DNA of 64,000 nt. It comes from Gracilaria domingensis. Taxonomy: Eukaryota > Rhodophyta > Florideophyceae > Gracilariales > Gracilariaceae. Of this stretch, positions 21,232-59,260 are shown one piece after another (positions within the stretch are counted from its first letter, which is position 1; each line of letters opens with the position of its first letter). Both the position numbers and the translations under genes were made by a program. Where the stretch lies: assembly GCA_022539475.1 (NCBI GenBank), contig VCMS01000057.1, positions 244,811-308,810 on the forward strand, written 5' to 3'. The notes beneath the pieces are model-generated. The model worked only from the letters and a program-made list of their open reading frames with translations, did no database searches and was not told the origin of the DNA.

Positions 21232-22593
21232 TCAACTTTTGCCTTCGCTACAGCAGGCTCGTCCAGCAATTTTCTTCTGTTTCCAATTCGAGTCAACTTC
21301 GAAGACGCTCTCGCATTCTTCCACGTTCTGTTCCTCAGTCTCGTCGTCCTTTCCCCTGTCTTTTTCCTCTGCCACGAAGTAGCTGCTTGCCGACTCAAAG
21401 ACCTTCATCCCAGCCTCCTGAAAATCCTCTGAAGAGCGCTTTTTCGACCTGGACTTCGTAACAGATATTCCTCCTTGCGACTCCATATCAAACCTTCCAG
21501 CTCCACCTTCATGCCCAAAGTTTCCACTGTAATCAATCGTCCTCGCTGCGGCATTAAGAATCGCTACATCCTCGTTATCAGTACCCAGCCCAAAAACAAC
21601 CGCCCCTACAATAACTTTCTTTCTGTCACGCTCCGAAAGAGTGTAGCATTTCTTGCTCTTATCCGTCTCCATAAACTCCTTAAAATTAAGATTCTTCTGG
21701 CCACTTCGTCGGAAATTAGCAAACGATAAGGACGAAAGTGTGCGAAAACCATTACTAACCGAACGCAAGTACGCACCAGGTCGATATTGGATAGGAGAAT
21801 CTTCCGGAGTGTTCGGTTCATCGAACAAATATTCTAAATCCTGATGTAAACGCAACGTTGCATCGTTATACCTTTTCTCAATTACATTCACCCATTCATC
21901 AACCGTCTTCTTTTTTTTGTCTAGATCAGACCGCCTCGAAATTGTCTGTGACGCTCGGAGATACGCAGGACGGCATTCCAGATCATCACGAATCAGGAGT
22001 ATCAATCTCATAAACTCAGAAAGAGAGAAAGGCTTCTGCTTTGCTTGTTTCTTTTTTGACGTCAATTCTTGTACTCCGGTCAAGTCCAAAGCCGTCGATT
22101 TCGAAAGGCGATTTTTTTTCGTGGGAGTGTCTCTGCTCTTTGCAGGGCTTTCAGCCTTTCTTTTAGAACGAGCACAAGAGCTCTTCCCGCGGGCAACAAG
22201 TTCAGGAAACCGCTTGATCTTCACAGCCGTTTCGGAAGGCGCGCAAGTCGCAATATCGCGCAATGCTGGTATCACTAGCAGTGGTGGATTTCGATACACG
22301 AGTGCCCACTTTTTTTTGAAAGTAGGATAGTTCCAGGCTTTCCCTTCCAGTACAGCTTCGATCGTCGATAGTTTTTTCACAACGCAACTGTCGTAAACAA
22401 ATATCATTAGTTGCGCAATAAGAACAGCTTTTCCAGACGCCGTGTGCTTAAAATGCTGGGATACATCCCAAAACTTGTGCATTTCTCGCAACTTTTCGAC
22501 ACATTGAGAGCACAAAAACACGTAGGCCCTATGCAAGTCAGTGTCTCTTGCGACGGACGCAATGTTTGTGAGTGTAGACGGAGAGGACGTCAT
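21232..22593 (-). CDS. Hypothetical protein, family A member 1
   Basis: A 453-codon intact frame from ATG at 22593 (MTSSPSTLT). I do not recognise it. Visible features: a basic Lys/Ser-rich stretch in the middle (KRKAESPAKSRDTPTKKNR), then FSLSEFMRLILLIRDDLECR, then ISRRSDLDKKKKTVDEWVN, and an acidic C-terminus. The order E-(F/Y)-x-R-L, DD, T-(I/L)-(S/T)-R-x-x-L-D, T-V-D-x-W, followed by an F/Y-N pair, recurs in the protein encoded at 28598-29919. The two therefore look homologous. A mobile-element accessory role is possible because both lie within the hAT-bounded segment. No catalytic motif is evident. Confidence 0.55.
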   Translation of the reverse strand: MTSSPSTLTNIASVARDTDLHRAYVFLCSQCVEKLREMHKFWDVSQHFKHTASGKAVLIAQLMIFVYDSCVVKKLSTIEAVLEGKAWNYPTFKKKWALVYRNPPLLVIPALRDIATCAPSETAVKIKRFPELVARGKSSCARSKRKAESPAKSRDTPTKKNRLSKSTALDLTGVQELTSKKKQAKQKPFSLSEFMRLILLIRDDLECRPAYLRASQTISRRSDLDKKKKTVDEWVNVIEKRYNDATLRLHQDLEYLFDEPNTPEDSPIQYRPGAYLRSVSNGFRTLSSLSFANFRRSGQKNLNFKEFMETDKSKKCYTLSERDRKKVIVGAVVFGLGTDNEDVAILNAAARTIDYSGNFGHEGGAGRFDMESQGGISVTKSRSKKRSSEDFQEAGMKVFESASSYFVAEEKDRGKDDETEEQNVEECESVFEVDSNWKQKKIAGRACCSEGKS

Positions 22594-22887
22594 TGGTCTC
22601 AAAATGTGATTGACGTCACAACTTGCGGAAATGCTGCCTTATTCTGCTACCGAGGAAGCAGTACTCAATTGTGAGAAAGGCGTAAAGGGAAGAGTGTTGC
22701 GTCGTGTCGAAAGAGGTGGTGGGAAGAGCCACGACGAAAGGAAAGAGTAGAAGGAGGAGAGTTGAACCCTTGCCCACCCTGAGTGCGCTCCCTTGGAGCG
22801 CAGAAGCAAACGCAACAATGTGCGCCGGGAGAATAAAACTGCATTTTGGTGAGCTGGACACCAAGTGCTGGAGTCAGTAGATGTCAC
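22594..22887. other. 5' flank of hypothetical gene
   Basis: No gene seen. Presumed promoter of the minus-strand gene at 22593. Confidence 0.3.
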
Positions 22888-22922
22888 GCAGAAAGAATCA
22901 CTACACTAGTGATTTTTTCTGC
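22888..22922. repeat. Strong 16-bp stem hairpin
   Basis: GCAGAAAGAATCACTA, loop CAC, then TAGTGATTTTTTCTGC. The sixteen pairs are complete apart from one G-T wobble. It sits at the left edge of a long run of smaller hairpins and may mark its boundary. Confidence 0.7.
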
Positions 22923-23020
22923 TTGACACACTTTGGTTCCACTGTTTGGGATTGAATCAACGAAATGTGGTGCAAACTCGGTGACGGGAAAACAACAGCC
23001 GCGTCGCGGAAGAGCACCGA

Positions 23021-23796
23021 CAGGGGTGTTCGAACCCTGCTCCCTGCAGGAGTAGGCGCGGTGACAGAACCCTCCGATGAGGTCAACACGAGCCGGGTGT
23101 AAATCCGGGTGACCCCGATCTGGGCGTGCAGTTGGAGGTAAAGGGGGTAGAATTGGCGTAGGTATCCGGATGGGTCCGGCGAGCCACAGCGAGTGGGGGT
23201 ATCCAGCCCAACGGTATGGGACGACAAAAGATTAGCCAGCGAGCCGCACTGCGGAGCACTGACTCGAGATAACGGGAATAAGTCCCGAGACTAATAGGCC
23301 AAACCTGTATGACAGGTCAGAGTATCGAAGAGCCGTAAGACGGAAGTAAAAACAATAGAATAGATAGTAAAGGTGCCGTGACGACGGATTAGTACTCCTC
23401 AGAGATGGAGGTTGGTTGATCAGCCCGGAATTGGGGCGGTATTCCCCAGGATGGGGCTTGTGACCGTGCGCAAGCGGCAAGAAGATCAGAGCCAAAGGCC
23501 TCGTTGAGGTTTACTTCCCATACATTGGCGGCAAGTGCCGCCACTTATATACGGCACTTGAAAATATCAATTAAAATATCTAACTATCCGGCGCAGCCGG
23601 CCAATACACTACAGGTGTGCCCCCGTGGCAGGCTTGCCACGGCGCCCGCGCGATCGGGCCAACTTGGCACACGTGTGCAGAAATACTACCCTTCCTAGGC
23701 ATACCCCAAAATAGGGGCACTAACCCAGTAGCCTCTCATAACCTGAGGTGTCGAAGCCGGTAACGGATCAACAAACTATGAAAAGCACCTCGGTGC
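23021..23796. repeat. Chain of about twenty short GC-rich hairpins
   Basis: No gene fits here, yet almost every 30-40 bases holds a perfect small inverted repeat with a 0-9 base loop. Positions: 23021-23039, 23040-23052, 23071-23082, 23093-23108, 23166-23179 (CCGGA/TCCGG), 23244-23254 (CCGC/GCGG), 23273-23287 (CGGGA/TCCCG), 23303-23317 (ACCTGT/ACAGGT), 23333-23343 and 23376-23387 (both CCGT/ACGG), 23397-23411 and 23499-23509 (both CCTC/GAGG), 23432-23448 (TGGGG/CCCCA), 23527-23542 (GGCGGCA/TGCCGCC), 23588-23600 (CCGGC/GCCGG), 23623-23642 (8-bp stem CCGTGGCA/TGCCACGG), 23644-23659 (GCCCG/CGGGC), 23667-23678, 23704-23717, 23732-23748, 23785-23796 (GCACC/GGTGC). The density suggests a folded RNA, a palindrome-rich organellar or plasmid insertion, or an unclassified mobile sequence. 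Confidence 0.7.
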
Positions 23797-23854
23797 ATCC
23801 CCACAAAGGGCGTTTTGCTCTACACGAAAGAAGCTCCTTTTTGTAAATAGCATC

Positions 23855-23909
23855 AGCTTTTCACAAAATAGTTTCTAAATAGCTTTAGCTTTTCACAAAA
23901 TAGTTTCTA
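23855..23909. repeat. Two 23-bp direct repeats
   Basis: AGCTTTTCACAAAATAGTTT plus CTA occurs at 23855-23877 and again at 23887-23909, a 32-base period. It immediately follows the hairpin chain and could be its right boundary. Confidence 0.7.
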
Positions 23910-24010
23910 TTCTCGCAATTGCGACGAATTCGTAAACACTTCTTTTGCAGTTTCTTGGTGAGAGGTGAGACAGGAGAGGCGGGAGAGTCGGGAGAGGAGC
24001 GTTGCTATAG

Positions 24011-25339
24011 TTGTGCACCACCTCGATGGACAGCCCCGCGCCATGTTCCTGTGCGAAATGCAATCTTGCAACTATCTACGAACCCGATTACATCATCAAC
24101 GCTCAGAGTTTCAACGCTTGCGGGAATGCATTGCAAATCGCTGCATGTCGGAAACGTACAGGAACGGAGCGGCGCAGCACCATGATGATCATGAAATGCA
24201 ATAAGACTCAGAAGGGCTCTTCCCCATTCCCGGATTTCAGCGCGAATCAGCATGCTCCCAGTTGCCGCCAGGAAAACGAGTCGCACCAAAGCAGCTGCTG
24301 CCTTCTTTCAGAACATCGCCATCGAACGCCAACAAAAGCTCAATCCTCGTCTCCCGACCATCCGCCATTCCTCCGCCCCCGTCGTTCGCGCAGCGCAATG
24401 ACCGAAGTCGACCTGCACGCTAACGCCGATTTCCGCCAGTTCTTCATCCCCCCAGCGCATGAAAAGGCCGCACCGTCCACTTCAACAGAACCCCATGCCA
24501 AACAACCAGCCACAGAGAGCAACGACGTGCAGTTCGACACCAAACTCTCAAATCTCTTTGACGGCCTCGTGCCAAATAAGTCACCTTCATCTCCTCCTTC
24601 TGCATGTCAAATTGAACCGGTTCTCGCAAACGACTCTGACGTTGAGTTGGATGCCGAGCTCTCATAGGTCTTCGACAAACCGGCTGTGACGGAGGTATCG
24701 CCCTCCCCGCCACCGTCCGTCGCGCCGCAGCAAAACCACTCTCTAGCACATGCGCATCGAGCCAACTCGAAGCGACTTTCGCTCTCCGCTGCGTACAAGA
24801 AGAAGGGCGCTGGCGACCTGCTTTTCGCTTCGTCAGTAGCGCCCGTGACGACGAAGGCGAAGCCCAAGCCGATCAATGCCGAAGAAACGGAGCCTGCCAC
24901 CGAGGATTCCACCAACGCAACGAGCGAGGGTGATAAAGAGGTTCGAAAGCCGCTCAATGACGGACACAAGTCAGAAGACGTCGCGCCTGCGTCTGCGAGG
25001 GAGCTGATGAAGAGGCGCCTGGCGGCGAGGAATGGCGCGTCCAGGAAACGGCATGCTCCATCAAACTCCTCGTTGATGAACGCATCAAATAACGTGTCGC
25101 TCCCAAAGCCTTCAGAAGGACAATTCCCGTATCATGACAAACACAGGACCAGCAGTTCGCTGAAAGATGCACAATTCGGCACCGCACAGGCGCGCCGACG
25201 CACAGTACACGCCAAAGAGTATCAGCGCGGAAGGGCAACAAGTATAAACAGAAGGGTGAGAAGCGGCTGCGCCGCCTCAGGGGCAGTGGAAAAGCCCGTT
25301 TGGTACAGCCAGCACAGAGTGAACACCCGCACCAAGTGA
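24011..25339 (+). pseudogene. Hypothetical protein with in-frame TAG
   Basis: One frame stays open for 443 codons except for TAG at 24665-24667. Local repeats on both sides of the stop belong together: FDTKLSNLFDG before it, and LDAELS-stop-VFDKP across it. The stop is therefore inside one coding unit, not between genes. The protein is rich in Ser, Pro, Ala and charged residues and carries a basic segment ARELMKRRLAARNGASRKRH. I do not recognise it. It could be a pseudogene with one nonsense codon or a readthrough case. The following DNA continues a similar coding style in shifted frames. Confidence 0.45.
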
Positions 25340-32610: not shown

Positions 32611-33717
32611 CTATATGTCGTTCACAGAACCTGGTGCGCTCTCGCCCTGGTTCGATGCAGATAGACCATTTTCTCCATCGCCTCCAGTTACCGCAGCGTT
32701 AAGCATATCACTCTCAGAAAGCCTGACGAGTTCAGGATCGAGCATGAGTGGCTCGGAAGGGAGCGCGGGAGACAGTGGTGTTGCTGGCTCTGTTACAGAG
32801 AGGTTTCTGCTTTTAGCATATAGGTTGACGAGCATGCCAAACTGTTCGCTCTGCCTTCGCTGCAACGCAGCACTCGCGCTAGCGGCGTTAGCAATGCAGG
32901 TTTGTGCACGAAGGTTTTGAAGTTCAGCTGCCATTCGTCGACGTTCCTTTGCACGACGTACCTCCTCATGCCGCTTCTTATTCTTCTCGAACGTCTCCTT
33001 CTGTTCGGGGTTGCGCTTCTGTTTGTCAGCTCTTGACTCGTGATTCCGCGCCAGAGCGCGCGCTGCATTGTTGTCTGTTGTTAAGGTCTTCTTCGATGCT
33101 TCGTGGCGGTATTCAAGAAAAGCCTGGTCAAGGACATGAGTTGCGTCATTCTCCGGGATCCTTGCTTCTGCCACCGGTCCATCATTTTCCGTTCCGTCAG
33201 CGGTTGTCACAAAAACCTTCTTATACAAATCTTCTACAGACCCGACAGTGTGGCGCACATTTTCAGCTGTTATATGAACCATGTAGTCTCTCCGCCAACA
33301 CATACCATAACGGTTGTGTTCATCCAAGATTTCGCGGTGTGTAACATGACGCATGCGGGCACTTGCCGCAACACGAGAACATGTATTCTCTACAGTTTTC
33401 TGCTTTTGGACGGGTGCGTTGTTTGCAAGCAAAGAACGAAGGATCCAAGCCTTTTCTATCTTGTTCATCACAAAACGTGATGGTGGGCAGGTTGAAGCGC
33501 CGGTTTGGGATTGACGGTTGGTGCTGGTTGGTACTGATGGGTTAGATATGGGTATCGCTACTGAGATTGTTGAAGTAGTTGCTGTATTACCCGTTGTGGC
33601 GGTTAAAGGAGCTTTTGTAGCCGGCGCAGGGCTTGGGGGTTTGGATGTGCTTCCTACATCGCCGGACGTGGATCCCGTTCGTGGTGCTGGTGACAAATCG
33701 TTGGTGGTGGAAGCCAT
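32611..33717 (-). CDS. Harbinger Myb/SANT-like accessory protein
   Basis: ATG at 33717 (MASTTNDLSP). After an 80-residue Ser/Thr/Pro tail come VMNKIEKAWILRSLLANNA and TVENTCSRVAASARMRHVTH, resembling the divergent Myb/SANT fold of Harbinger accessory proteins. A long basic coiled coil follows (RADKQKRNPEQKETFEKNKK, then RRAKERRRMAAELQNLRAQ). These proteins carry the transposase to the nucleus and bind the termini. The frame is intact. The copia element lies only about 75 bases upstream of the ATG and probably removed its promoter. Confidence 0.65.
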   Translation of the reverse strand: MASTTNDLSPAPRTGSTSGDVGSTSKPPSPAPATKAPLTATTGNTATTSTISVAIPISNPSVPTSTNRQSQTGASTCPPSRFVMNKIEKAWILRSLLANNAPVQKQKTVENTCSRVAASARMRHVTHREILDEHNRYGMCWRRDYMVHITAENVRHTVGSVEDLYKKVFVTTADGTENDGPVAEARIPENDATHVLDQAFLEYRHEASKKTLTTDNNAARALARNHESRADKQKRNPEQKETFEKNKKRHEEVRRAKERRRMAAELQNLRAQTCIANAASASAALQRRQSEQFGMLVNLYAKSRNLSVTEPATPLSPALPSEPLMLDPELVRLSESDMLNAAVTGGDGENGLSASNQGESAPGSVNDI

Positions 33718-33787
33718 GTTTGCAGCCAAATCTGGTTTTCCACAGGAGAGTGGAACGTCGGTGATCTAAGCTAAGGGATAAGCTGGG

Positions 33788-33792
33788 GCACC
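33788..33792. repeat. Copia target site duplication, left
   Basis: GCACC, identical to 43509-43513. Five bases is the normal duplication for Ty1/copia integrase. Confidence 0.85.
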
Positions 33793-38215: not shown

Positions 38216-38218
38216 CGT

Positions 38219-47148: not shown

Positions 47149-47911
47149 TGTAGAGCCACGCTTTATGCGGTATTTGCTCGCTTTTGGTGTGAAATCGCTG
47201 CCCCTGCAGTGCAGTGGAGGTCAAGGACTCTGGTGAGGTTGGCACATCATTGCTGGATGGCTACACACGTGTATGGACGGTTGGCAGCCAACTTTGGGAT
47301 ATTCTAGATATTTATTATTTATTTTAGTTAGCCCGGTTGCACACTTGACAGTGGCACTCTACACTACTTAGTAGGTTGAGCTGCACCCATTGTCGGGGAA
47401 GTAAACGGACTAACCGAGTGTTCGGCTCTGATGTTTCACCCTTGGTGACCGATATCCTCCTCCCGGAGAGTCGGCACCTTGTGCAGGGCTCATCATCCGC
47501 CTCGCGGCATCATTAACACCACTACCGCTTTCGCGTGTTTACTTTGTGTGTGTTTTCTTTATTTCTGTCCCTGTTATACAGGTAGCACTACTTGGTGTAC
47601 CGGTGCATACCGTTCGTGGCTCGACACACTCGCGTGGGCTATTACCGCTCTCGCGTGTCATCGCCACACTCGTGGGTACCGCGTGCTACGCACGTGACGC
47701 TACTGCCGACTTGTGTCGTGTGTTCTCTACCGCTGGACGCTTCTTCTTCGCCGCTTCGCTCCCTCCATTACTTGGGAAGGGTCGACCCCGGTCTTACACC
47801 CGGCATTGCCGTGTCGTACCTGTGGGAGCGCTCTACTGCTGTGCTCGCCTCTTGAGAGAGGGTCTGAACCGCCTTTGCGTGTCTTTCCCCATCGCTGGGT
47901 TTTGCACAACA
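47149..47911 (+). repeat. Chromovirus 5' LTR
   Basis: 763 bp, TGTAGAGCCACG to GCACAACA. It aligns along its whole length with 58382-59260 and, inverted, with 59326-60287. It contains TTTATTATTTATTTTAG near 47309-47325, an AT-rich patch that may relate to the promoter or poly(A) signal. Confidence 0.8.
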
Positions 47912-47913
47912 AT

Positions 47914-47927
47914 TGGTCTCCCGACCT
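47914..47927 (+). promoter_or_regulatory. Candidate primer-binding site
   Basis: TGGTCTCCCGACCT begins two bases after the LTR and starts with TGG, complementary to a tRNA CCA end. The tRNA could not be named. Confidence 0.5.
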
Positions 47928-48351
47928 AGAAGTCGCGTTGATCCAGCAAGTTGGTTTTCTGATCAATTTCCGGTTTGCCGGTTCGTATCTGGTCGTGGAG
48001 ATACACTACACAGTTTGTACTGGAAGGCTTTGCCGACAGACGTCGTGTTGGTACTGCTTTCCTCATCTTGGGTTGTTGTTTGGACACGGTTTACTACCGG
48101 TGGCACTACCTATTTCCGTAGTGTGTGATTCCCGTCGGTACGGTTGTTGTCACCCCGTTTGGGTTGTCTACTGTTCCCAGCAATCTGGTCGAATCAGCCC
48201 TAATTCCGTATACGGCTGTTCCCGTTGGTACGGTTGGTTCGTCCGATTTGTCGGTTATCGTCACTCGTGTGAGGACGCTACACTCATTCGAGGTTAATTT
48301 GTTGTTTTGCTTTCCTGTTCCCAGTTTTCTGGTGGTATCTCGTCGTGGACG

Positions 48352-50436
48352 ATGGCGTCGGGCAAGCGCTCGAGCCCTACGAAGTCTCGCTCCGTTGGCT
48401 CTGGCTTGCCCCCACGTCTGCGGTCTGTTCCTGAACCCCTACAGGGTGATGGAAAGAAACCCGGAAACCGGAAACAGCCTCACAAGTCGTCTGACGCCCC
48501 AGTGGCTGGGCCCTCATCTGCTCCTTTGGAGGGTCTTATACCCGCTGTCGCGGCGAAGGATGCGCTCGTAAACGAGTTGGAGACTCAAGTTCGTGTGCTT
48601 GAGGCTCAGACTGCTGTCATGAGGAGTTCTCATGAAGCACTCGTTTCCGAGGTCGACACACTTCGTTTGAAGGTTGACGCAGCCCTCAACGGAGGTGTAT
48701 CAGATGATCTACGTATTTTACGGAAGGATGTTAATGCCCTCTTGGAGGTTCTTCAAGGATATCCCAGTTTCACCGAGGAGGTTAACACGAAGTTCATTCG
48801 GATCCTTGGCCGTCTTGAGACGTTAGAGGCCACCATCCGTGAGGATGACGGCCCTGCTGCCGCCTCTGCGGGAGTGTCTCGTGGTACACGTGACCGGAAG
48901 TCCGGGAAGAGTCGCTCTAAGAAGAGGAATGTCGACGAGTATGACTCGGATTCGTCACAGTCTTCTGGTATTTCAAACCGCTCGGCGGGTTCCTTATCAT
49001 CGAGCTCGTCAAGTGACGGTGAACGTCGCGCTCGTTCTACGCGTTCGCGGAGTTCTACGTCCACCTATGGTGTTGTTGGTACCCGGAAACGGGGGCGAAA
49101 GCACTCAGGTTTGAGGGAACTGGAGCCGACGAATCCCTTGTTCAAAAGGTTGTTATCTTACCGGTATTACCGTTTGGAAGATTCAAGTCTGAACCGGACG
49201 CCCCGTGGCACGGGTAAGGTGAAGGACTGCATCAAACGCATGTCCTTAACCTTTCGCAACCAGTTGTTCACTGGGGAGGATCCCATTCTGGTGCTTGACT
49301 TTCTTTCACGCTTTGTAGCGGAAGCTGACATCCTCGGCATGAGTGAGGGGCAAGCTTATGTTGCCTTACCGTATTTTCTACGGGGACTCGCTGAAGATCA
49401 GTATAACTCTGTAAGAGGTTCATCTCGCGCCTCTGAAGGAGGGGTCACCTGCTGGCCCGAAGCAGTGCAGTATTTGTTGCGCTCGTATGCGACAAATACC
49501 TCTATCGAGGAAGCAATCACCGCGTTGCGGGAGACGAAACAACGCCCGAAGGAGTCGGAAACCGAGTACTCGGTACGCCTGAATAAGGCATTCCACCGTT
49601 GTGGCAATGTTTACTCCTCAAACGAGCGCTGTACGCTGTTTATCAACGGATTGAATCCGGCTATTCGCACTCTGGTTGCCCAGCGACGGGAAGACCGGAA
49701 GAAGACTACCTATCTGGAGTTAGTGCAGTACGCGAAGGCGGAGGGAGACGCCTTGCGCGCACGCACCGGATACCGGGTTTCAACCAAAGCGTTGCACCTC
49801 GAAGGAGGGTCGTCATCGGCTTCACTGCTACCGCAGGACTTTTCTGGCCACGATGTGGATAACTTACATCTCGCACAGGTGGACCTGGATTCTATTCCGA
49901 CTACGGAGTTGCCTTCTACTTCAGAAGCCTCGTCGAAGACGGAAGATGCGCTGCTTTACGCAGACCGTCCACGCGTTCGCGGTCCTCAAGTACCCTATTC
50001 AGGGAGTCGTTACCAGCGACCTGGTTGGGTAGACCCGCGAACGGTGAAGTTCCAAGACCCACGGAGTTCCGGAAGACCACCCCTGATCTGTTTCACGTGT
50101 TACAACCACGGTCATGCAGCTCCGAACTGCAACCTCTCGATGAGGGAAATGCCCACGGTTGTGGCGAATTTTGAAGCGCTGACCCCCGCCGAACAGGCGT
50201 CAGTGCCGGTAACCGCATATCTGCGTGCGAAGGCTGAGTACCCCCGTAGGGTGTCTGCTGCAGAATTGGCTGCGTTACTGCACTCTGGTTCGACCCAGGT
50301 CAATGTTTCACCGGCTCAAGCCGTGGCGGCAACCGCTGTTGCGGGTAGTTCTGTCGCTGTTCCACAGGAATCTGTGAAGATGCCTGCTGCACAGGACGCC
50401 GTTCCCGTTAGAACGGATGGAACTCAGTTAAACTGA
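48352..50436 (+). CDS. gag: Chromovirus Gag
   Basis: 694 residues from ATG at 48352 (MASGKRSSPTKS). A basic Pro/Ser N-terminus is followed by a predicted coiled coil (VNELETQVRVLEAQ, EVDTLRLKVDAAL) and a Ser/Arg-rich linker. The capsid-type retrotransposon gag domain lies around residues 300-480 (LVLDFLSRFVAEADI, YALPYFL-type segments, ETEYSVRLNKAFHRCG, LFINGLNPAIRTLV). One CCHC zinc knuckle, CFTCYNHGHAAPNC, lies near residue 583. It ends at TGA 50434-50436, immediately after the heptamer G TTA AAC. It has no internal stops and packages the element RNA. Confidence 0.85.
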   Translation: MASGKRSSPTKSRSVGSGLPPRLRSVPEPLQGDGKKPGNRKQPHKSSDAPVAGPSSAPLEGLIPAVAAKDALVNELETQVRVLEAQTAVMRSSHEALVSEVDTLRLKVDAALNGGVSDDLRILRKDVNALLEVLQGYPSFTEEVNTKFIRILGRLETLEATIREDDGPAAASAGVSRGTRDRKSGKSRSKKRNVDEYDSDSSQSSGISNRSAGSLSSSSSSDGERRARSTRSRSSTSTYGVVGTRKRGRKHSGLRELEPTNPLFKRLLSYRYYRLEDSSLNRTPRGTGKVKDCIKRMSLTFRNQLFTGEDPILVLDFLSRFVAEADILGMSEGQAYVALPYFLRGLAEDQYNSVRGSSRASEGGVTCWPEAVQYLLRSYATNTSIEEAITALRETKQRPKESETEYSVRLNKAFHRCGNVYSSNERCTLFINGLNPAIRTLVAQRREDRKKTTYLELVQYAKAEGDALRARTGYRVSTKALHLEGGSSSASLLPQDFSGHDVDNLHLAQVDLDSIPTTELPSTSEASSKTEDALLYADRPRVRGPQVPYSGSRYQRPGWVDPRTVKFQDPRSSGRPPLICFTCYNHGHAAPNCNLSMREMPTVVANFEALTPAEQASVPVTAYLRAKAEYPRRVSAAELAALLHSGSTQVNVSPAQAVAATAVAGSSVAVPQESVKMPAAQDAVPVRTDGTQLN

Positions 50437-53400
50437 GTACGGGAGTCTCCAATGGAGAGGCGCCCGAGTCGAGGTCTACGGCGCCCGAGGCGTCACCGCC
50501 TCGCTCCCAGGTCAAAATCCTTTCGAGGAAACAGACCGTCTTAGACGTGGACTCTACCACCATCGGTGTGTTACGTCGCCCGTGGATACGGTTCAGGAAC
50601 AACCGGATCCCGGATCGAGTCATGGTAATGGCCAAGCGAAACTACAAGATATTTGCTGACCTTGGCCTATCCACCCAGTATATGGTGCGTCATCTCTCTG
50701 TCTTGGATACAGGTGCTGGCCCCAACTTCATTGTTGAGTCATTACTACCGCCGGAACTCCGTTGTCGAGTCCGCTCTGGACCCGTCATGGACGTGGCAGA
50801 TGCTAACAATAACCCGTTACAAACGGCTGGAATGGTTTCACTGATTGTCAGGATTGGTAACTGCATCGAGCAGGTAGAATTCATCGTCTGCAAGACGCTC
50901 GCTGCCCCTGTCATTCTAGGGTGTGACTTCTGCGACAGATATGTCGAAGCCATACGACCGCGTGCGCGTGAAGTGGAAATGGAAGATGGTTCGGTTGTAC
51001 CGATTGTTCGTCGCTCATTACGCCGAGCGTCAGCTAAGCTGGTACCACTACCCGCTCCTCTACAGGATTCCTCACCTCCGAAGGAGTCGCCGAAGCTCCG
51101 CGTAGCGCGTGCAATTTCTATTCCGCCAGAATCCCAGGTTTGGGTTGATGTTACTGCCGCACCGCGTGGTTTGCGGGTTGTTCAACCATTGAACTCGTTA
51201 TACGAGAAGTATCAGGTCGCGTTGGCGAACGGAGTTGTTCAAATCAACAGCGAACACCCCTTTCGGGTTATGTTGGCCAACTTTGGCAAGAAGCCCCAGT
51301 ATCTGGTGAAGAACCAAGTAATTGGTACTGTCTTACCGCACCCTACGGCGCTTATCCCTACAAAGGTGACTGTCGCCGAGATGCTCGGGCTTGCTGAAGA
51401 ACGCACTGGTTTGCTTCACCCTAAGGAGGGGGAGGGAGAATCGTCGCGCTCGTCTGCGTCACACCCGTCCCAGACGGTTGAACACCCGTCCCAGACGGTT
51501 GAACACACGAATGACTCGGAAGCTAGGACCGTTCCTACGAGTTATGACAAGATTGACCCTATCAAGGAGTTAGAAGAATTGAATCTCGGTCATGTACCGG
51601 TTTCACACCGTGAGAAGTTGCGCAACATGTTGCGAGAGTTTACACCAATGTGGGATGGTTCCCTCGGAGAGGTTTCAACTACGGAACACCGGATTGACCT
51701 CCTGCCGGAGACCAAGCCGATTGCTCAGCACCCTTACAGGGCAGGCCCGAAAGCACGGGAAGAGGAAGAGTTTCAGATCAACAAAATGCTCCGCGCTGGC
51801 GTGATAGAACCGGCTCAGTCGCCGTGGGCATCTCCAGTTGTACTGGCTCCGAAACCCGACGGGTCCTGGCGCTTTTGTATCGACTATCGTCGCTTGAACG
51901 ATGTCACCGTCAAAGACGTGTACCCCATACCTCGTATGGACGAGTATATCGACTCGCTTGGCGATGCTACTGTTTTCTCCACTTTGGATGCAAACTGGGG
52001 TTACTGGCAAGTACCAGTTAGACCGGAAGACCGTGACAAGACCGCGTTTACCTGTCATTCAGGACTATACCGCTTTAAGCGTATGCCGTTCGGGTTAACG
52101 AACGCCCCCGCTACGTTTCAGCGTGCTCTGGACATTTTGTTAGCTCGCTTCAAATGGCGGAGTTGCTTGGTATACCTCGATGACATCATCGTGTTTTCCA
52201 ACAGTTTGGACGATCACCTCGAACATGTTCGGGAGATAATGACCGCTTTGCGGGATGCTGGAATTACTCTCAAATTGAGGAAGTGTGAGTTTTTCACTCA
52301 CTCAGTGAAGTATCTGGGCCATGTCATACGTCCAGGACGGTTACTGATCGAGGAAGCTCGCGTGAAGTCCCTCAAAGAGGCGAAGCACCCCACTACACAG
52401 ACAGAGCTACGCTCCTTTCTAGGGCTATGCAACGTTTATAGACGGTTCATTTCTCGCTTCGCGAAGATCGCGGGACCGCTCAACGAACTCCTGAAGAAGG
52501 GACAACCGCCCAAATTGGGACCACTTACCCCCACGCAAGTGGAGGCCTTCAACTCTCTTAAAGAGGCTGTTACCACGGCACCCGTGTTAGCGTTACCAAA
52601 GAACGGGTTGCCGTACACCGTGGATACGGATTCGAGCGATTACCAAATTGGCTGCGCTCTCTTTCAGACTACACCCGAAGGGGAACGCAAACCAATTGGC
52701 TATTGGTCTCGTACACTCAACGTGCACGAGCGCAATTACTCGGTATCCGAGAAGGAGTGTCTCGCCATGGTATGGGCTTTGCAGACTCTACGACCATATC
52801 TTATGGGTGTGCACTTTACCGTCAATACGGATCATTCCGCCTTGCGTTGGTTAATGTCAGTCACGGAGCCTTCCGGACGCTTAATGCGTTGGCGTCTTCG
52901 GCTTGCCGAGTTTGACTACGAGGTCACCTATAAGAAGGGTTGTTTAAACGCGCAAGCGGATGCTCTTTCACGTCTAGGAACTGAAGGTGAAGCTTTACCC
53001 CTCGATGACGAGGATGAAGATATCCCCTGTTTCCTCATGGAGGAGGGTGATGAAGACTACGACATCGTGTCGGACGACATCTGTGATGATTTGCTCGTCG
53101 CAGACGGTGAAGACCCGGAATCCGGTACATTCGTCCCCATTACTCCAGAAGAGCTGGTGCGGGAACAGCAATCTGACCCGTTCTGTACGAGGATACGCTC
53201 CCAAATTAATGGTGGTGCTAACATCCCGTTCGGGGTCAACACACAAGGTTACCTCGTCAGAGTGGTTCGTTCTGCCCCACAGATTGTGGTTCCTCACTCC
53301 TTACAAACAAGGGTATTGCATCTCTCGCATCACTCGCGGATGGCTTCCCATCCGGGTGCTAAGCGGTTATACACGACACTGCGTCGGGATTTCTACTGGC

Positions 53401-55802
53401 CCGCGTTAGCGTTGGACTGCTACACCACCGTGAAGGCGTGTACACATTGTGCTCGAGAGCGAGTTAAACAGCGTCGCCATGCGAAGAAACTAACACTTTT
53501 CCCCGCAAGGGCGCCGTTGGAGTTTATTGCCATCGATATACTCGGCGAGTTCTTGCGTACTTCCCGAGGAAATCGGTTCTTACTCGTTATTACGGATAGA
53601 TTCAGTAAGCTAGTCCGAACAGTTCCGTTGAAGTCGATTACAGCACGCAGTGTTGCGGAGGCATTCGTTCGCCATTGGGTTATGGTCTACGGTCCCCCGG
53701 TCAATCTCCTCTCAGATAATGGTCCGCAGTTTACTGCACGTTTCTTCCAGGATGTCTGTCGGATACTCGACGTGAAGAATCTCTTCACGACGACGTATCA
53801 TCCCCAATGCAATGGGCAAGTCGAACGGTTTAACCGGACGATGCTCTCCGCGTTGCGGGCTTATACTGTTGAACACCCGAAAACTTGGGATCTCTACACG
53901 GATACCGTGACGTATGCGTATAATACGCAAGTTCACAGAGTAACTGGTTTATCGCCCTTTGAGCTCGTGCTCTCACGGACACCACCGCCAGTTGCGGTTG
54001 AACCATCAGCAAAGCTGGATACGTCACCGTCAATACGGGATCACTACTTGCAATGGAAGCAGTGGTTATCCGCAATGGTACCTGTCGCCAGGTCGTCAAT
54101 GGCGAAAGCACAACACGCTTACAAGCGGAACTTTGATGCCCGGGTACGGAGACCACTACCGCCACTGAAAGTGGGAAACCTCGCCTTTGTCAGGAAGGAG
54201 TACTACAACCCTGAAAAGGAGCGGCGCCACAAGCTTTCACCCATCGCTGATGGTCCATACCGCGTTATTAGCGTGAATACGGACACAGTCGTACTGGAAG
54301 TTGGGGACGCTCATGAGCGTTTCTCCCGCGATCGCGTGGTAAGAGGTCCAACCGTTCACACGGAAGTACTTTCGGACACACAGCAGGAAGCTGGACAGAC
54401 AGAGAACCGAGGAACCTCGTCGCAGAACACTACACCCACTGTGGGGCTCCGTCACCCAACACGGGGTCTCGCAGATGTACCGATTATATCGTCGCAAGCC
54501 GAGGTATCGGAACATACACCGCTGGTGAAATCGCGTTTCACAGCGTCTGTTACACCGTCAACTGACGTGATGACTGCTCCCCGTAACGCTCCACCTAAGG
54601 AGGGGGAGGGGAATTCACGCGTTGTCGCGGAGAGTGAGTCACCGGTGTCGCTACCGTCGCAGCACCGTGATTCACGGGAAAGTAATGAAGAAGCAGAGGC
54701 AGAGTCGCCTCAGGACACCGTCGAAGACGTAGTTGCTACGGACACCACTGTCAGTGGGAAGGATCACCCGCTGTCGCGTGTTGAAGTCGCGAAGGACGCG
54801 CCGCAGTCGGCCGCTGTCGCGCAGAACTCTGCGGAGGATACACAACCTTCCACGAAGGATCGCGACCTTCAGGAAGGACACCGCACGCAACGAACGGACT
54901 CAAGGTTGTCCCAGGATACTGGTATTGCCCACCCATCTGGGGAATTGTCACAGGAACACGCGCCCATCGTCGCACGGACGCAGGACGCGGAGCATGCTCT
55001 CGTTCGCGAAGTTTCCACGGCAAGGCCGGAAGTTGATCAAGAACACCCGACTTCTCGGCAGAGCAAGGCTACAGCGAAGCTGGATACTGTATCACGGAGT
55101 ATTTCGGACGCGCAGTCGCCGCATTCCGCCGCTGACGACCGCCGCAAACCGCCTTCGCAGGCGCGCTGTAGGGTAGTCACGGCAGATCCCGGTATCGTTG
55201 ACACTGCAGAGCAGGAAGAAGAGAAGACGCTCGCTGAAGCGAAGATCACACACCCCGGTTCGGGTAATGGTAGTGCACCGTTGCACCCAGCCGTGGGGAA
55301 GTCGCAAGTCGCACGTCATGACGTTTCGCTAAGTCATGACGGCGCACCGCTCTTTGGAGATACGGATTACAGCCCTGATTTAGGGAAAACGCACACTGCA
55401 GCTGCAGGAGCGCTTGCGCACCACAAATCTTGGGGCGCGCAGCGCGCCCCACACAATGGGCCAGTCACAGCTCGTGGCAGTGCCACCACCGCGAACCGTC
55501 GCGTGTCTTCACGTGAACCGGCACGTGCCGTGGTGAACAATCCGCCTCCGCGTCCGCCTTCACCGTTAAGACGGGAACTATCGCGTGAACTAGCCGTTCG
55601 CGGACCCGCCGAAGCGGCGAAGCTGCTTGAAGAAGCCCGGAAACGGGAAACGAACACTCAGCAGAGGGCAAATCCACCGCCGAAGGCGTCAGGAGAAACT
55701 CACAGCACCGCTGGTCACGAAGTTACGGCACCGCCGCAGCGCGCTGACGACCCTTCGCAGGAAGAGCTCGAGCGGGCGTATACTCGAAAGAGTTCGTCGT
55801 AG
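50412..55802 (+). CDS. pol: Chromovirus Pol polyprotein
   Basis: Made as a Gag-Pol fusion by -1 frameshifting; the frame has no early ATG and is open from 50412. Retropepsin: LSVLDTGAGPNFI (about 50706). Reverse transcriptase: GSWRFCIDYRRLND, FSTLDANWGYWQV, MPFGLTNAPATFQRA and catalytic VYLDDIIVF (about 52170). RNase H: PYTVDTDSSDYQIG (about 52625). Integrase: HHCC zinc finger (HHSRMASHPG to CTHCARE, 53320-53450) and the DDE triad in IAIDILG, LLSDNGPQF and NGQVERFNRT. A GPY/F-type module DGPYRVISVN follows at 54250. About 480 residues of low-complexity hydrophilic linker complete the frame. Catalytic residues are all present. The frame ends just before a chromodomain that lies in the -1 frame. 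Confidence 0.9.
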   Translation, partial: NGWNSVKLSTGVSNGEAPESRSTAPEASPPRSQVKILSRKQTVLDVDSTTIGVLRRPWIRFRNNRIPDRVMVMAKRNYKIFADLGLSTQYMVRHLSVLDTGAGPNFIVESLLPPELRCRVRSGPVMDVADANNNPLQTAGMVSLIVRIGNCIEQVEFIVCKTLAAPVILGCDFCDRYVEAIRPRAREVEMEDGSVVPIVRRSLRRASAKLVPLPAPLQDSSPPKESPKLRVARAISIPPESQVWVDVTAAPRGLRVVQPLNSLYEKYQVALANGVVQINSEHPFRVMLANFGKKPQYLVKNQVIGTVLPHPTALIPTKVTVAEMLGLAEERTGLLHPKEGEGESSRSSASHPSQTVEHPSQTVEHTNDSEARTVPTSYDKIDPIKELEELNLGHVPVSHREKLRNMLREFTPMWDGSLGEVSTTEHRIDLLPETKPIAQHPYRAGPKAREEEEFQINKMLRAGVIEPAQSPWASPVVLAPKPDGSWRFCIDYRRLNDVTVKDVYPIPRMDEYIDSLGDATVFSTLDANWGYWQVPVRPEDRDKTAFTCHSGLYRFKRMPFGLTNAPATFQRALDILLARFKWRSCLVYLDDIIVFSNSLDDHLEHVREIMTALRDAGITLKLRKCEFFTHSVKYLGHVIRPGRLLIEEARVKSLKEAKHPTTQTELRSFLGLCNVYRRFISRFAKIAGPLNELLKKGQPPKLGPLTPTQVEAFNSLKEAVTTAPVLALPKNGLPYTVDTDSSDYQIGCALFQTTPEGERKPIGYWSRTLNVHERNYSVSEKECLAMVWALQTLRPYLMGVHFTVNTDHSALRWLMSVTEPSGRLMRWRLRLAEFDYEVTYKKGCLNAQADALSRLGTEGEALPLDDEDEDIPCFLMEEGDEDYDIVSDDICDDLLVADGEDPESGTFVPITPEELVREQQSDPFCTRIRSQINGGANIPFGVNTQGYLVRVVRSAPQIVVPHSLQTRVLHLSHHSRMASHPGAKRLYTTLRRDFYWPALALDCYTTVKACTHCARERVKQRRHAKKLTLFPARAPLEFIAIDILGEFLRTSRGNRFLLVITDRFSKLVRTVPLKSITARSVAEAFVRHWVMVYGPPVNLLSDNGPQFTARFFQDVCRILDVKNLFTTTYHPQCNGQVERFNRTMLSALRAYTVEHPKTWDLYTDTVTYAYNTQVHRVTGLSPFELVLSRTPPPVAVEPSAKLDTSPSIRDHYLQWKQWLSAMVPVARSSMAKAQHAYKRNFDARVRRPLPPLKVGNLAFVRKEYYNPEKERRHKLSPIADGPYRVISVNTDTVVLEVGDAHERFSRDRVVRGPTVHTEVLSDTQQEAGQTENRGTSSQNTTPTVGLRHPTRGLADVPIISSQAEVSEHTPLVKSRFTASVTPSTDVMTAPRNAPPKEGEGNSRVVAESESPVSLPSQHRDSRESNEEAEAESPQDTVEDVVATDTTVSGKDHPLSRVEVAKDAPQSAAVAQNSAEDTQPSTKDRDLQEGHRTQRTDSRLSQDTGIAHPSGELSQEHAPIVARTQDAEHALVREVSTARPEVDQEHPTSRQSKATAKLDTVSRSISDAQSPHSAADDRRKPPSQARCRVVTADPGIVDTAEQEEEKTLAEAKITHPGSGNGSAPLHPAVGKSQVARHDVSLSHDGAPLFGDTDYSPDLGKTHTAAAGALAHHKSWGAQRAPHNGPVTARGSATTANRRVSSREPARAVVNNPPPRPPSPLRRELSRELAVRGPAEAAKLLEEARKRETNTQQRANPPPKASGETHSTAGHEVTAPPQRADDPSQEELERAYTRKSSS
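50427..50433 (+). promoter_or_regulatory. Predicted -1 frameshift site, G TTA AAC
   Basis: The last sense codons of gag are CAG TTA AAC TGA. GTTAAAC is a known -1 slippery heptamer (used, for example, by equine arteritis virus). The pol frame is exactly -1 relative to gag and open from 50412. Twelve bases downstream a hairpin TCTCC-AAT-GGAGA (50446-50458) could be part of the stimulatory structure. Confidence 0.7.
51421..51436 (+). repeat. Internal polypurine 16-mer, copy 1
   Basis: CTAAGGAGGGGGAGGG inside pol, identical to 54595-54610. Encodes PKEGEG at both places. Possible internal plus-strand priming tract. Confidence 0.45.
51463..51506 (+). repeat. 21-bp tandem duplication in pol
   Basis: CACCCGTCCCAGACGGTTGA is repeated twice in register, giving HPSQTVEHPSQTVEH between protease and reverse transcriptase. 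Confidence 0.7.
54595..54610 (+). repeat. Internal polypurine 16-mer, copy 2
   Basis: CTAAGGAGGGGGAGGG in the linker after integrase; identical to 51421-51436. Confidence 0.45.
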
Positions 55803-56170
55803 ACCACATCGTGGGACACAGTTGGAACCCGAAGGGGTCTGTTCAGTACCAGGTACGCTGGTATGGCTATCCGCCGTCGCGGGATTCGGACGAACCCGTG
55901 GAGCACTTACCCCGATCGAAGATCGTGCAGTACCATCGTCGAACAAACACGGCGTTGCCGCTAACCTACATCAAGCGATGGTCGGATAACACACGTCGTT
56001 GGAGACGGAGGCTTATCGCGTACCGCGCACGAACGGTTCTACGAACGACAACACTCAATCAAGGAACACTGCGACAACCTCCAGAGGAGTACTGTACCGC
56101 TACTCGCGTGGTGAGGAGACACTCTAGGAAGAAGAGAGTTGAGTTCAAGATCAGTTATGCCCTCAGGTGA
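55748..56170 (+). CDS. Chromodomain, -1 frame relative to Pol
   Basis: The frame reads EFVVDHIVGHSWNPKGSVQY, QVRWYGYPPSRDSDEPVEHL, PRSKIVQYHRR. This is the classical chromodomain pattern: VxxIL, YxVKWxGYP, W/D-EPxxxL, iixYh. Chromodomains at the integrase C-terminus target chromoviruses to heterochromatin marks. The aromatic cage position usually Trp before EP is Asp here. A basic tail follows to TGA at 56168. Pol stops at 55802, 55 bases into the overlap; no slippery heptamer is visible, so an indel or sequencing error is the simplest explanation. Confidence 0.75.
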   Translation, partial: RPFAGRARAGVYSKEFVVDHIVGHSWNPKGSVQYQVRWYGYPPSRDSDEPVEHLPRSKIVQYHRRTNTALPLTYIKRWSDNTRRWRRRLIAYRARTVLRTTTLNQGTLRQPPEEYCTATRVVRRHSRKKRVEFKISYALR

Positions 56171-58371
56171 GGAGAAGTTTAGTTGTACTCTGAAGAGGAT
56201 GAAGTACACTCGGAAGAAGAATGAAGACTCTATGGAGAGGAATTGTCATTCAGATGCGAAGTTATGAAGAAGGAGTTTCACATGTGACTCTCACCCATGT
56301 GGGGTCACTTGGTTGCTCGCATTTTGCGGTTGGAATCCGACTCATGTCGTGTCTAATCGCTATTCAATCGTTTTCGATGTTGTTTACCTGTTAGGTTTTT
56401 TGTCCAGCTTGCGGGTTCGCTACTACCATAGTGGACCGCAATCACGGTTTTTCCCTAGCAGAAGGGTGTACAATTTCCGTGTACATCATGTGTATCTACC
56501 GGTTTGATCACCGTTTGCCATTTTCGAGGAGCACCGCTCGTTCGTTTGGCTTTCACGTTGAACAGGGTTCGTTCTCGTCAGTGACGGTCTTTGCACGTTT
56601 CACGGTTCTCACTGCACGCCACATGCGGCCGAGGTTCGAAACCGTCACGCATATTGCGGAAGAACCCCGATCTCATCGGTTATCATCACCTTGTAAGGGT
56701 TCGTCACTCTCGTGGTCGAGGATAGTTTCTGGTAAACCGATATCTCTGGAGCTTCGTTTGCGCCCGCACTGCGGCCTATCATTCCATCTCACCGTTTGCA
56801 CGGGTTTTCGAAAGCTTACCGAGACGTTCTCGTGAGTTCTGCACGGTACGGGACCGGAAGATACACATCTTGTTGAAGGATCATTGTTGTTTTGCGACCC
56901 ATTTTTATGGTGTCATTTGTTGTCTCAGCCTTGCTGGTGTGTTTGATTTTGGGTTTCACGAACCCTCTGTGAGGTCTAGTGACTGCCCTCGGTAGAGGTT
57001 GAACCTTGATTAAGGTCTAGTACGCCGTCATCCGGTTGAAAGTTTTCACGGATTACCGGTTTAATTGCTGCTGTCAACGACTTTCGACCACGTCTACTAC
57101 TGTTCACTCCGTTGTGGAGGCCGTCTTTTACGCTTCTGCGGTCTCTGGTACAGCCGCACAAGGCGTTGGTATCGATTACCAGTCGTTTCTGGTCTTTTTC
57201 GCGTTCTCCGATGTCGGGTGTATCACCTCTACAGTACCTTGCGAGGGTCATCTGCAAAAGACCCGTAACTCGGTGAATACTGGCTCGTTTCTTCAACGGT
57301 TTTGTACCAGTAGTCACTGGATGTATACAACACTTTGGCGGAAACCGAACGCAATTGGTCTTGAAGAACTTTGGAGCTACGGCACCGTTTCGGTTCAACA
57401 ATCTATTTTTAGACCGCATTTTTGTCAACTGAAATGGGTCGGGCTTTCCCCACTTAGTGGTGTTAATCCCAACAGTTTTGTTGTCAAATGAAAGCTCTGA
57501 TTCTCAGGAGTTCTCCGATGTATCGGGTTTGGTTCAGAGCGTAGCTGGTTCAAAAGTTATGGCGACTACAATTTTTCGGGTATGTCAAATTCCCAATTTC
57601 TTTGTGTGAAGTTTCCGAAACGTCGTCGCAGCGTTGATTCGACAATGTCGTAACTTCTGAACCCATCTAGAGACTACGTGCCGCATGATTGCGTGATGTG
57701 AGCGACCGTATAACGGGACGGTGGACCTCGGAGAGGAAGGAATTGGGCAGGAAAAGGTCGCTACTGTACTGGGTGACCTTGGATCGCGCTTGTCGATTCC
57801 ACAGTGTGGCAACCGCCCCTGAAAGGGAAAATAGGCGCCTCAGAGAGGAGTGGCTAGTGTAGCACTTTCACCGGCAACCCCGCCGGACAGTGAAACGCAA
57901 GTTCAGGAGACTCGCTCCCGTTCGGTGTGTCGAGCGTTGCTGCAGCACTGCTGGCACCGAAGTCGGCTCGCCGCTACCTGCGAGTGCGCAAGGCCACCGT
58001 CAAGACGCTCCTGGTTGCGACACCCCACTAGATATGAAGCGCGAAGACGATAGTTGCGCCTACTGCAGGACCGTTACTCTGGGCGTGAATGAAACGCAGC
58101 GCAACCCATCTGCGGCTCGCCTCGAGCAACCATTTTCCACGACGAGTGAGCTCGGGAACGTTATGCCACGTCGACGTAAGACCTCGATCGCAAACTCCAA
58201 AAATAGAGCAGGTACATTGGACGACGCATATAGACCCAGAAAACGGGTACAGATGGCGCGATTCAGTCACGATCGCTCGCAGATACCGGCTCTATGCTTT
58301 GGATGCACAACGCTTGTTGGCTCTTGCCGGGCTTCAACCTCATTGATACGACGCTGAGTGTTCGCCACCTC
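56171..58371. other. Long noncoding 3' region of the chromovirus
   Basis: About 2.2 kb between the chromodomain and the polypurine tract without a supported gene. The longest frame, 57036-57491, is not preserved in the inverted copy. The region is clearly part of the element because the inverted copy (60350-62700) matches it throughout. Confidence 0.5.
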
Positions 58372-58381
58372 AGAAGGGATA
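58372..58381 (+). promoter_or_regulatory. Polypurine tract at 3' LTR
   Basis: AGAAGGGATA immediately before the 3' LTR. It is also present (GGCGGGATA) beside the inverted LTR. Primer for plus-strand synthesis. Confidence 0.6.
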
Positions 58382-59260
58382 TGTAAGCCACGCTTTATGC
58401 GGTATTTGGCTCGCTTTTTGTTGTGAAAATCACTGCCCCTGCCAAGTGCAGTGGAGGTCAACGACTCTTCAGGTGGCACATCATTGCTGCAATGCGGCAC
58501 ACACCGTGTACTGCGGACTGGGTATGAGAGGGCCAATGCCAACTTTGGGATATTCTAGATATTTATTATTTATTTAGTTAGCTCCGGGGCTTGCACACTT
58601 GAGCAGTGCGCACTCTGACACTACTTAGTAGGCTTGCGAGCGTGCACCCCATAGTCGGGAAGTACAAGGCGCGAACATATGTCTGTCTACTCGGTCGGCC
58701 TCTGATGTTTTTACACGCCCTAGCAAGTGGACGATATCCCTTTCCTCACGGGAGAGTCGGGCCAACCTGTGTGCACGCGGGTTCTCATAACTAACCCCTA
58801 CCGGGCGATCCATTAACACCACTACCGCTTTCGCGTTGTTACTTTGTGTGTGTTTTCTGTAAATTTCTGTCCCTGTCTATACTATGGTAGCACTACGCTT
58901 GAGCTACCCGGTACCGTACCAGCATTCAGTGGCCCGATTCTACACCTCGCCGCGGCTATTACCGCTTCTCGCGATGTCATGTCGCCACTATTCTCGTGAG
59001 GTACCCGCGTGCTACGCACGTGACGCTACTGCCGACTTGTGTTCGTTGTTGTCTTCTAACGCTGGACGCCTTCTTCTTGCGCCGCTCGCTCCCTCCGATT
59101 ACTTGGGAAGGCGTCGACCCCGTCTTACAGCCCAGGGACCATTGCCGTGCGTACGCTGTCTGGGGAGCGCTCTACTGCTGCTGCTCACGCCATCTTGAGA
59201 GGAGGTCCTGGAACCGCCTTGCTGTCTTTCCCCTGAATCGCTGAGAGTTTTGCACGAACA
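58382..59260 (+). repeat. Chromovirus 3' LTR, indel-rich
   Basis: Begins TGTAAGCCACG, ends GCACGAACA. It matches the 5' LTR throughout but is 116 bp longer, through many single-base and short insertions. This error pattern looks like raw long-read noise more than evolutionary divergence. Confidence 0.75.

Follow-up and report, generated by a model that had tools for sequence, protein, structure and literature searches.

The closest described relatives of the elements analysed here are the Ty3/gypsy chromoviruses (Metaviridae), with which they share LTRs with TG..CA ends, a 5-bp target-site duplication (TSD), a primer-binding site (PBS) TGGTCTCCC, a polypurine tract (PPT), the order RT-RNase H-integrase and, in the family termed a, a chromodomain. 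Unlike those elements, the algal ones carry an element-wide array of CC-clamped micro-hairpins, and we know of no description of such an array in Ty3/gypsy chromoviruses. The RNA dimerisation hairpins of Ty1 also lie in LTR/leader RNA, but they are few and not element-wide. GORS of RNA viruses resembles the algal array in being coding-region structure kept by synonymous choice, whereas the algal array differs in its uniform micro-hairpins with a preferred base, in a small energy effect that is equal on the two strands, and in making no overall use of G·U pairs.

Long retroviral R regions (PMC3601003) likewise place stem-loops in LTR/5' leader RNA, but these are a few specific hairpins as opposed to hundreds over an algal element. 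In single-stranded RNA viruses, dispersed packaging signals are many short, degenerate stem-loops found genome-wide with a shared recognisable part (Twarock/Stockley model, PMC6281560). The algal hairpins are similar in being many stem-loops with a shared motif over a genome; they differ in that the shared part is the stem base and not the loop, that pairing is almost only Watson-Crick, that one family is orientation-symmetric and that the carrier is a retrotransposon. Packaging signals are also bound by coat protein and lie on one strand; in the algal elements the evidence on orientation is mixed. No description of such an array in retrotransposons was found in the open-licence literature searched, including PMC3601003, PMC12502185 and PMC6281560.

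The solo LTR and its hairpin chain

The window is a stretch of 64,000 nucleotides from Gracilaria domingensis (contig VCMS01000057.1), in which the original prediction had described a chain of small hairpins, suggesting a structured long RNA, an organellar or plasmid insertion, or a mobile sequence of hairpin modules. We found that the chain lies within a solo LTR belonging to family a of Ty3/gypsy chromoviruses, with the following features:

22961..22965, no strand: left TSD CGAAA, supported by the empty-site paralog
22966..23824, minus strand (element sense): solo LTR of family a, 859 bp, from repeat copies, TG/CA ends and TSD
23021..23796, no strand: the hairpin chain within the LTR, 26 small perfect stems
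23532..23560, minus strand: 9-bp hairpin CAAGTGCCG/CGGCACTTG with an 11-nt loop holding a TATA-like box, seen by eye
23825..23829, no strand: right TSD CGAAA, supported by the empty-site paralog

Scoring of 40 candidates out of 640 candidate places in the genome gave 40 near full-length matches to the 859-bp unit, namely the window copy and 39 others at 92-97% identity, and two more copies were partial (83% and 77% identity). A 17-nt LTR end that families a and b share with most of family c has 348 occurrences, compared with 0 for its backwards control. TG..CA ends were present in 36 of the 39 other copies, a perfect 5-bp TSD at six of them as well as at the window copy, a PBS of the sense AACTGGTCTC type after the LTR in 13 (two with a one-letter variant) and a PPT of the AAGGGGGAGA type before the LTR in 18, while in two copies none of these four signals fitted exactly. 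Same-strand LTR pairs are spaced by 10.9-11.0 kb in seven cases and by 8.6, 11.4 and 14.6 kb in the others. Between one family a pair lie RT, RNase H, an integrase zinc-binding domain and a chromodomain, with RVT_1, RNase H and Integrase_H2C2 matched by Pfam in separate frames and the chromodomain (PF00385) scoring 32 bits (cut-off 25.1). An empty-site paralog, C106:152998-153382, lacks the LTR; its part 152998-153263 matches the left flank at 94% and its part 153259-153382 the right flank at 96%, the two matches overlapping by exactly 5 bp. Taken together, the dispersed copies, the LTR ends, the pol domains between paired copies and the empty site show that 22966-23824 is a solo LTR, which presumably arose by recombination of two LTRs. 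As a chromovirus LTR the object is ordinary. Dispersal, LTR ends, TSDs and pol domains between paired copies do not support an organellar or plasmid insertion, and the idea of a mobile sequence of hairpin modules was essentially right, as the internal part of the element has the same property as its LTR. Rfam gave no match above a gathering score over the window and, in 22500-24500, four weak sub-threshold matches that all fall outside the LTR; ARAGORN found no tRNA. A reading by eye as a group I or II intron was dropped for want of Rfam support.

The chain itself is real. A greedy count of perfect stems without overlap (4 bp or longer, loop 3-10 nt) found 26 in 23021-23796 as opposed to 13.6±2.6 in dinucleotide shuffles, and none of 1000 shuffled sequences gave as many (maximum 22). 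The whole 859-bp unit contains 29 stems against 15.1±2.9, again reached by none of 1000 shuffles, or 29 against 12.7±2.7 when loops are restricted to 3-8 nt (300 shuffles). The excess consists of stems of 4-5 bp; stems of at least 6 bp in the 859-bp unit numbered 3 against 1.6, a level reached by 199 of 1000 shuffles. All four stems that had been quoted as examples are present in the LTR: CCGTGGCA/TGCCACGG at 23623-23642, (T)GGCGGC/GCCGCC(A) at 23526-23543, ACCTGT/ACAGGT at 23303-23317 and CGGGA/TCCCG at 23273-23287. Among the stems said to recur, CCGT/ACGG appears twice in the greedy list as described, and CCTC/GAGG, described as occurring four times, appears there three times with a fourth visible with a 9-nt loop. 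The two structures that had been placed at the ends of the chain exist but belong to host flank outside the repeated unit: the 16-bp stem at 22888-22922 is paired at only 15 of 16 positions, and the direct repeats after the chain have a 32-bp period in 23840-23909. The host flank carrying both is found elsewhere, on C106, without the insertion. The imperfect palindrome is some 40 bp away from where the LTR inserted, in a locus of which C106 has a duplicate without the LTR.

Extent and type of the hairpins

The window also contains a related chromovirus, family d:

47149..47911, plus strand: 5' LTR of family d, 763 bp, TG..CA ends, followed by PBS TTGGTCTCCCGACC
47912..58381, plus strand: internal region with 112 CC-clamped hairpins, 10.7 per kb
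48307..50436, plus strand: gag ORF, 709 aa, hairpin-rich
50547..55802, plus strand: pol ORF, 1751 aa (RT, RNase H, integrase), hairpin-rich
58382..59260, plus strand: right-hand LTR-like copy, 78% identical to the left one, hairpins at z 0.8

The window was scanned in 79 bins of 800 bp. Fourteen consecutive bins (47201-58400), corresponding to family d, gave z 3.6-7.1, the two bins of the LTR 2.4 and 4.6, and the other 63 values from -2.6 to 3.1. The earlier statement that ordinary DNA does not form such chains is therefore accurate for most of the window, but a second element does form them. In the family a element (L048), 11 of the 12 internal pieces gave z 2.7-5.9, the short last piece giving 0.6. 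LTR sequences showed the excess in nine of 11 cases (z 3.8-6.9), with b_L068 at 1.7 and the right-hand copy of family d (d_3) at 0.8. Thirty RT loci fell into six clusters, making eight gypsy clusters with families a and d; these clusters are 66-73% identical to a or d, those of L094 and L116 are 87% identical to each other, and all eight gypsy clusters have the excess (z 4.9-15.4, 1.5-2.2 times expectation). Statistically, the results show that the hairpin array is a property of LTRs, gag, pol and non-coding parts in related chromoviruses of this genome. A copia control, limited to a single 735-bp piece that does not suffice to establish absence from copia, gave 8 stems against 10.7.

Synonymous codons were then permuted within each protein as a codon-preserving control. 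The pol frame of family d has 258 stems with loops of 3-6 nt against 99.7 in such shuffles (z 15.7), its gag frame 103 against 42.1, and three frames of family a gave z 5.1-6.3. By contrast, loops of 12-24 nt gave no excess under the same shuffles (z -3.3 to 1.7), nor did two host frames (z -0.4 and -2.7). Given that the excess persists with protein and codon use fixed, the array is not a result of codon use. In the window's host DNA, stems slightly outnumber those of dinucleotide shuffles (821 against 678, 1.21 times), by a factor that is flat over loop length. This count and the host counts of stem letters and interior mismatches set aside 33001-38500, a stretch of strong strand skew, and everything after 46800, these bins being included in the 800-bp scan.

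The letters, loops and inner pairs of the hairpins were counted in eleven pieces of about 41 kb in total (two internal regions, five 3.5-kb RT loci and four LTRs), from which family c internal DNA and the L116 cluster are absent, the latter being scored in the base-letter count by family. The core type, CCNN-loop(3-6)-N'N'GG, was observed 405 times with 50.8 expected (about eightfold), while GGNN stems stayed near chance (76 against 51.5). Among other outer letters of the 5' arm, CT, AC, CG and TC were enriched 3.0-3.7 times and AA and AG were near 1. Host DNA had 31 CC stems against 25.1 in 40 kb. The CCNN excess survived codon-preserving shuffles in all five frames (57 against 10.4±3.1 in family d pol), with GGNN within 2 standard deviations. 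By loop length, CCNN enrichment was 6.8, 11.5, 10.3 and 4.2 times at 3, 4, 5 and 6 nt and 0.9 times at 10 nt, and this dependence, with enrichment gone by about 10 nt, indicates a hairpin formed by a single strand. The inner two pairs are free in their letters but complementary, with Watson-Crick pairs enriched 7.9 times compared with 1.4-1.5 times for G·U and 1.7-2.5 times for A·C. Loops are A/T-rich and show no clear tetraloop excess except in small counts (GCAA, 5 against 1.0). In family d, neither codon phase nor spacing of the CC hairpins followed a clear rule beyond fewer very close neighbours.

The preferred base differs by family. CC is the most enriched base in family a (12.0 times), family d (10.7), L109 (5.4) and the LTRs of families a-c (11.3), AC in L110 (8.4) and L091 (6.3), and TC in L113, L116 and L103 (5.6-7.0), the values for L110, L091, L113, L116 and L103 resting on 20-36 stems each. 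Flanking letters vary as well. Stems of family a are flanked by G...A in 75 cases against 28.0 and by the reverse complement T...C in 26 against 25.1, with 35 of 63 C-first G...A cases located within L048 6105-9104. Stems of family d are flanked by A...G in 72 cases against 31.2 and by its reverse complement C...T in 69 against 36.7, so that family d is symmetric in orientation and family a is not. Flanks in L103 and L113 were enriched about twofold on 15-22 stems, and those of L110, L091 and L109, three of seven families, showed nothing clear.

Strand evidence, change over time and possible roles

Single changes in stem pairs between five families produced 502 G·U and 528 A·C mismatches, indicating no overall wobble tolerance on the sense strand. 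Mismatches were also counted in five-bp stems with one interior mismatch. By this count, the internal region of family d leans to sense G·U (80 against 65.3, with A·C at 51 against 60.7), as do the LTRs of families c and d (G·U 9 against 4.8 and 9 against 4.4; A·C 1 against 2.7 and 1 against 2.5), whereas family a has no G·U lean (G·U 74 against 58.1; A·C 79 against 63.1). RNA folding energy is modestly low and equal for both strands, the mean z per 150 nt on the two strands being -0.81/-0.84 in family d, -0.70/-0.65 in family a and -0.17/-0.02 in host DNA. Folding of the whole solo LTR gave a lower z for the antisense strand (-4.5 compared with -2.7, 20 shuffles each). For the 38 non-redundant sequences among 56 family a and b LTRs, RNAalifold returned energies of -176 (sense) and -156 (antisense) with an unhelpful covariation term (+2.8 and +3.9), supporting no single global fold. 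The structured long RNA originally proposed may still apply, but a classical RNA fold is not favoured, since the strands fold equally well and G·U is not preferred overall, although two LTRs (c and d) lean towards G·U.

Change in the stems was compared with that in composition-matched control stems with loops of 12-24 and 30-42 nt. Among close pol copies, short-loop stems change at 0.051 per site as opposed to 0.069 and 0.073 in the respective controls, and LTR stems are slower too, for example 0.113 against 0.172 and 0.157 from a to b. Between pol families at 63-71% identity, 85% of stems are broken, and 4.6% have changed while keeping every pair, compared with 1.6% and 1.0% of the control stems. 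Compensation, which the original prediction had made a point of, therefore reaches 2.9-4.6 times the controls between pol families, but in LTR comparisons the share of stems changed yet paired does not clearly exceed the controls. Stems picked out by eye as compensatory between LTR families are anecdotal, and the LTR count does not show them above control. Watson-Crick pairs were kept more often than in codon-shuffled partners in all 20 ordered family comparisons (z 1.5-8.8), while two-sided changes that keep pairing were not consistently above codon-shuffled sequence (e.g., 20 against 26.4). Pairs with two changes are Watson-Crick in 324 of 732 cases, naive chance being about a third.

Polarised substitutions (six branches and 622 substitutions, the sums leaving out two second-outgroup rows) caused 134 hairpin losses with 174 expected and 73 gains with 76.5 expected, compared with 181 against 180 and 202 against 178 for the control loops. 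The 357 variants shared between copies in four families break 64 stems with 92.5 expected (0.53-0.85 by set; 109 against 92.5 for the loop 12-24 control), whereas stem losses through the 579 singleton variants match expectation (161 against 164.1), so that stems do change without compensation, less so by shared variants. Hairpin gains were 48 against 42.3 for shared variants (15 against 9.0 in LTR a) and 76 against 67.6 for singletons. The strength of these comparisons is approximate, as some variants are not independent of one another and the expectation was matched for base only. Singletons presumably arose mostly after insertion, and shared variants while the element was replicating. The deficit of losses in shared variants suggests purifying selection while the element was active, which predicts it better than does a mutational bias that writes hairpins.

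We reasoned that, as the most economical account, the array could consist of redundant binding sites for Gag on the single-stranded genome of the element, a prediction that we hold tentatively and place slightly below an even chance. The micro-hairpins would form in genomic RNA and/or cDNA and would offer many weak, redundant sites to the element's own Gag, which has a zinc-knuckle-like motif (CX2CX4HX4C, seen by eye in both families a and d; the Pfam zinc knuckle scores 13.8 bits in family a, below the cut-off of 20.8, and has no match in family d). Hairpins bound in this way might mark the genome for packaging, condensation or orderly reverse transcription, and family-specific base letters would make the label cognate. 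Redundancy of sites would let individual hairpins turn over while density stays constant, letters particular to each family would explain how an element recognises itself among its rivals, and relaxation after insertion would account for singletons breaking stems at the expected rate. However, tolerance of G·U does not exceed that of A·C overall, and both strands fold equally; flank orientations are equal in family d, the G...A cases of family a come mostly from one region and no flank stands out in three of seven families; the majority of hairpins do not persist from one family to another, and two-sided changes with pairing kept are not consistently above codon-shuffled sequence; two of 11 LTRs (b_L068 and d_3) have little excess; the zinc knuckle is below the Pfam cut-off; and variants are not independent, the deficit of losses varies by set and shared gains in LTR a are 15 against 9.0. 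A farther-reaching claim, unlikely in our estimate, is that CC/GG micro-hairpins in synonymous positions make up a family-specific structural address code with which an element could distinguish its own nucleic acid from a competitor's. Hundreds of redundant hairpins would then be recognised by the family's own proteins on the single-stranded genome or, in the boldest version, on single-stranded cDNA. Almost exclusive Watson-Crick pairing without overall G·U preference, the strand symmetry of family d, equal folding energy on the strands and a loop optimum of 4-5 nt falling by 8-9 nt would also fit hairpins that work in single-stranded DNA, the loop optimum being closer to DNA than to RNA loop energies. 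The minus-strand cDNA, or both strands, would then fold during reverse transcription and protect against nucleases or deaminases, pace the reverse transcriptase or aid plus-strand starts. The strand-biased flanks of family a (75 against 26) and the sense G·U lean in LTRs c and d and in the family d internal region speak against this role, for which we know of no precedent and which we consider rather improbable.

An excess that spans coding and non-coding parts by way of synonymous choice, local folding energy below that of shuffles (z -0.81 and -0.70 per 150 nt, host -0.17) and the G·U lean of LTRs c and d would fit generic GORS-like structuring that hides genomic RNA from RNA silencing without a specific protein. 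This has a low probability in our view, given that the energy effect is small and equal on the strands, that there is no overall G·U preference, that base and flank letters differ by family and that CC/GG stems are strongly preferred over GG/CC stems, the two being presumably of like stability. It is also quite improbable that the hairpins were written neutrally by fold-back template switching of reverse transcriptase (quasipalindrome correction), with CC/GG as microhomology. Such a process would give Watson-Crick arms, short loops, hairpins in all parts of the element and restriction to elements, and the Watson-Crick share of two-change pairs (324 of 732 against a naive third) is in line with it; yet gains are near expectation (73/76.5, 48/42.3 and 76/67.6, though 15/9.0 in one set), and a gain process does not predict that shared variants alone cause fewer losses than expected. 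Solo LTRs are frequent, stems of at least 6 bp are not in excess in the LTR and the host has a slight, flat excess of 1.21 times, so that one could imagine an unremarkable solo LTR with meaningless hairpins owing to base composition, codon use or a chance cluster. The codon-preserving, loop-length and host controls and the recurrence in eight clusters make this hardly credible.

Should the Gag-site reading or the address code be real, a group of nuclear retrotransposons would be under a second, structural code on top of gag-pol, and it would become testable how an LTR element among rival families knows its own RNA or cDNA. The signal (eightfold overall, 10-12 times at loops of 4-5 nt, core motif) would flag elements and solo LTRs without similarity search, and stem excess as a function of loop length combined with codon-preserving shuffles would be a simple screen for retroelements of other lineages.

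Further features of the elements and the window

The PBS-type sequence TGGTCTCCCGAC is common to families a, b, c and d (L049, L062, L057 and window 47912-47925) and starts two or three bases from the 5' LTR end. In the pol ORF of family d, Pfam matched RVT_1, RNase H, Integrase_H2C2 and rve in that order above cut-offs, with weaker extra matches to rve_3 and zf-H2C2 below cut-off; no chromodomain was found there by Pfam, and the ORF may end before it. Gag relatives named Agarophyton chilense reach 63% identity over 48% of the query, and no relatives in IMG/VR were confirmed by tblastn. Near the 3' end of the family a element, L048:8291-9580 (minus strand) holds two open frames of 321 and 104 aa that are antisense to gag-pol and have no Pfam match.

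The right-hand LTR copy of family d differs from the left one (47149-47911) by many small indels, and the sequence just past 59260 is like that flanking another copy (C485), with indels of the same kind; the divergence of the right-hand copy possibly reflects a poorly polished stretch of the assembly and not true divergence. An inverted LTR-like piece at 59534-59997 matches the LTR of family d at 73% identity. Counts of CC hairpins along the window reach 14 per kb in the LTR bin, 7-14 in the family d bins (47-58 kb), 10 at 61-62 kb and 6 at 63-64 kb, three other host bins reaching 3. The inverted piece and these raised counts between 61 and 64 kb (61-62 and 63-64) point to another family d-like element, oriented towards the first.

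Within the solo LTR, a TATA-like box (sense GTATATAAG, 23544-23552) was seen by eye in the loop of the only 9-bp perfect hairpin, which may be a separate promoter matter; a similar arrangement was seen by eye in the family c LTR. The minus strand at 23021-23040, GCAGGGTTCGAACACCCCTG, inside the LTR, is like a tRNA T arm, with no tRNA found by ARAGORN or Rfam. At L041 (C391:37080-39464), a family a LTR with a 5-bp duplication is nested in the end of a family b-like LTR piece, and the nested LTRs adjoin an LTR of family c (842-845 bp). A FIST protein encoded near the solo LTR is 84% identical to a protein named Agarophyton chilense.
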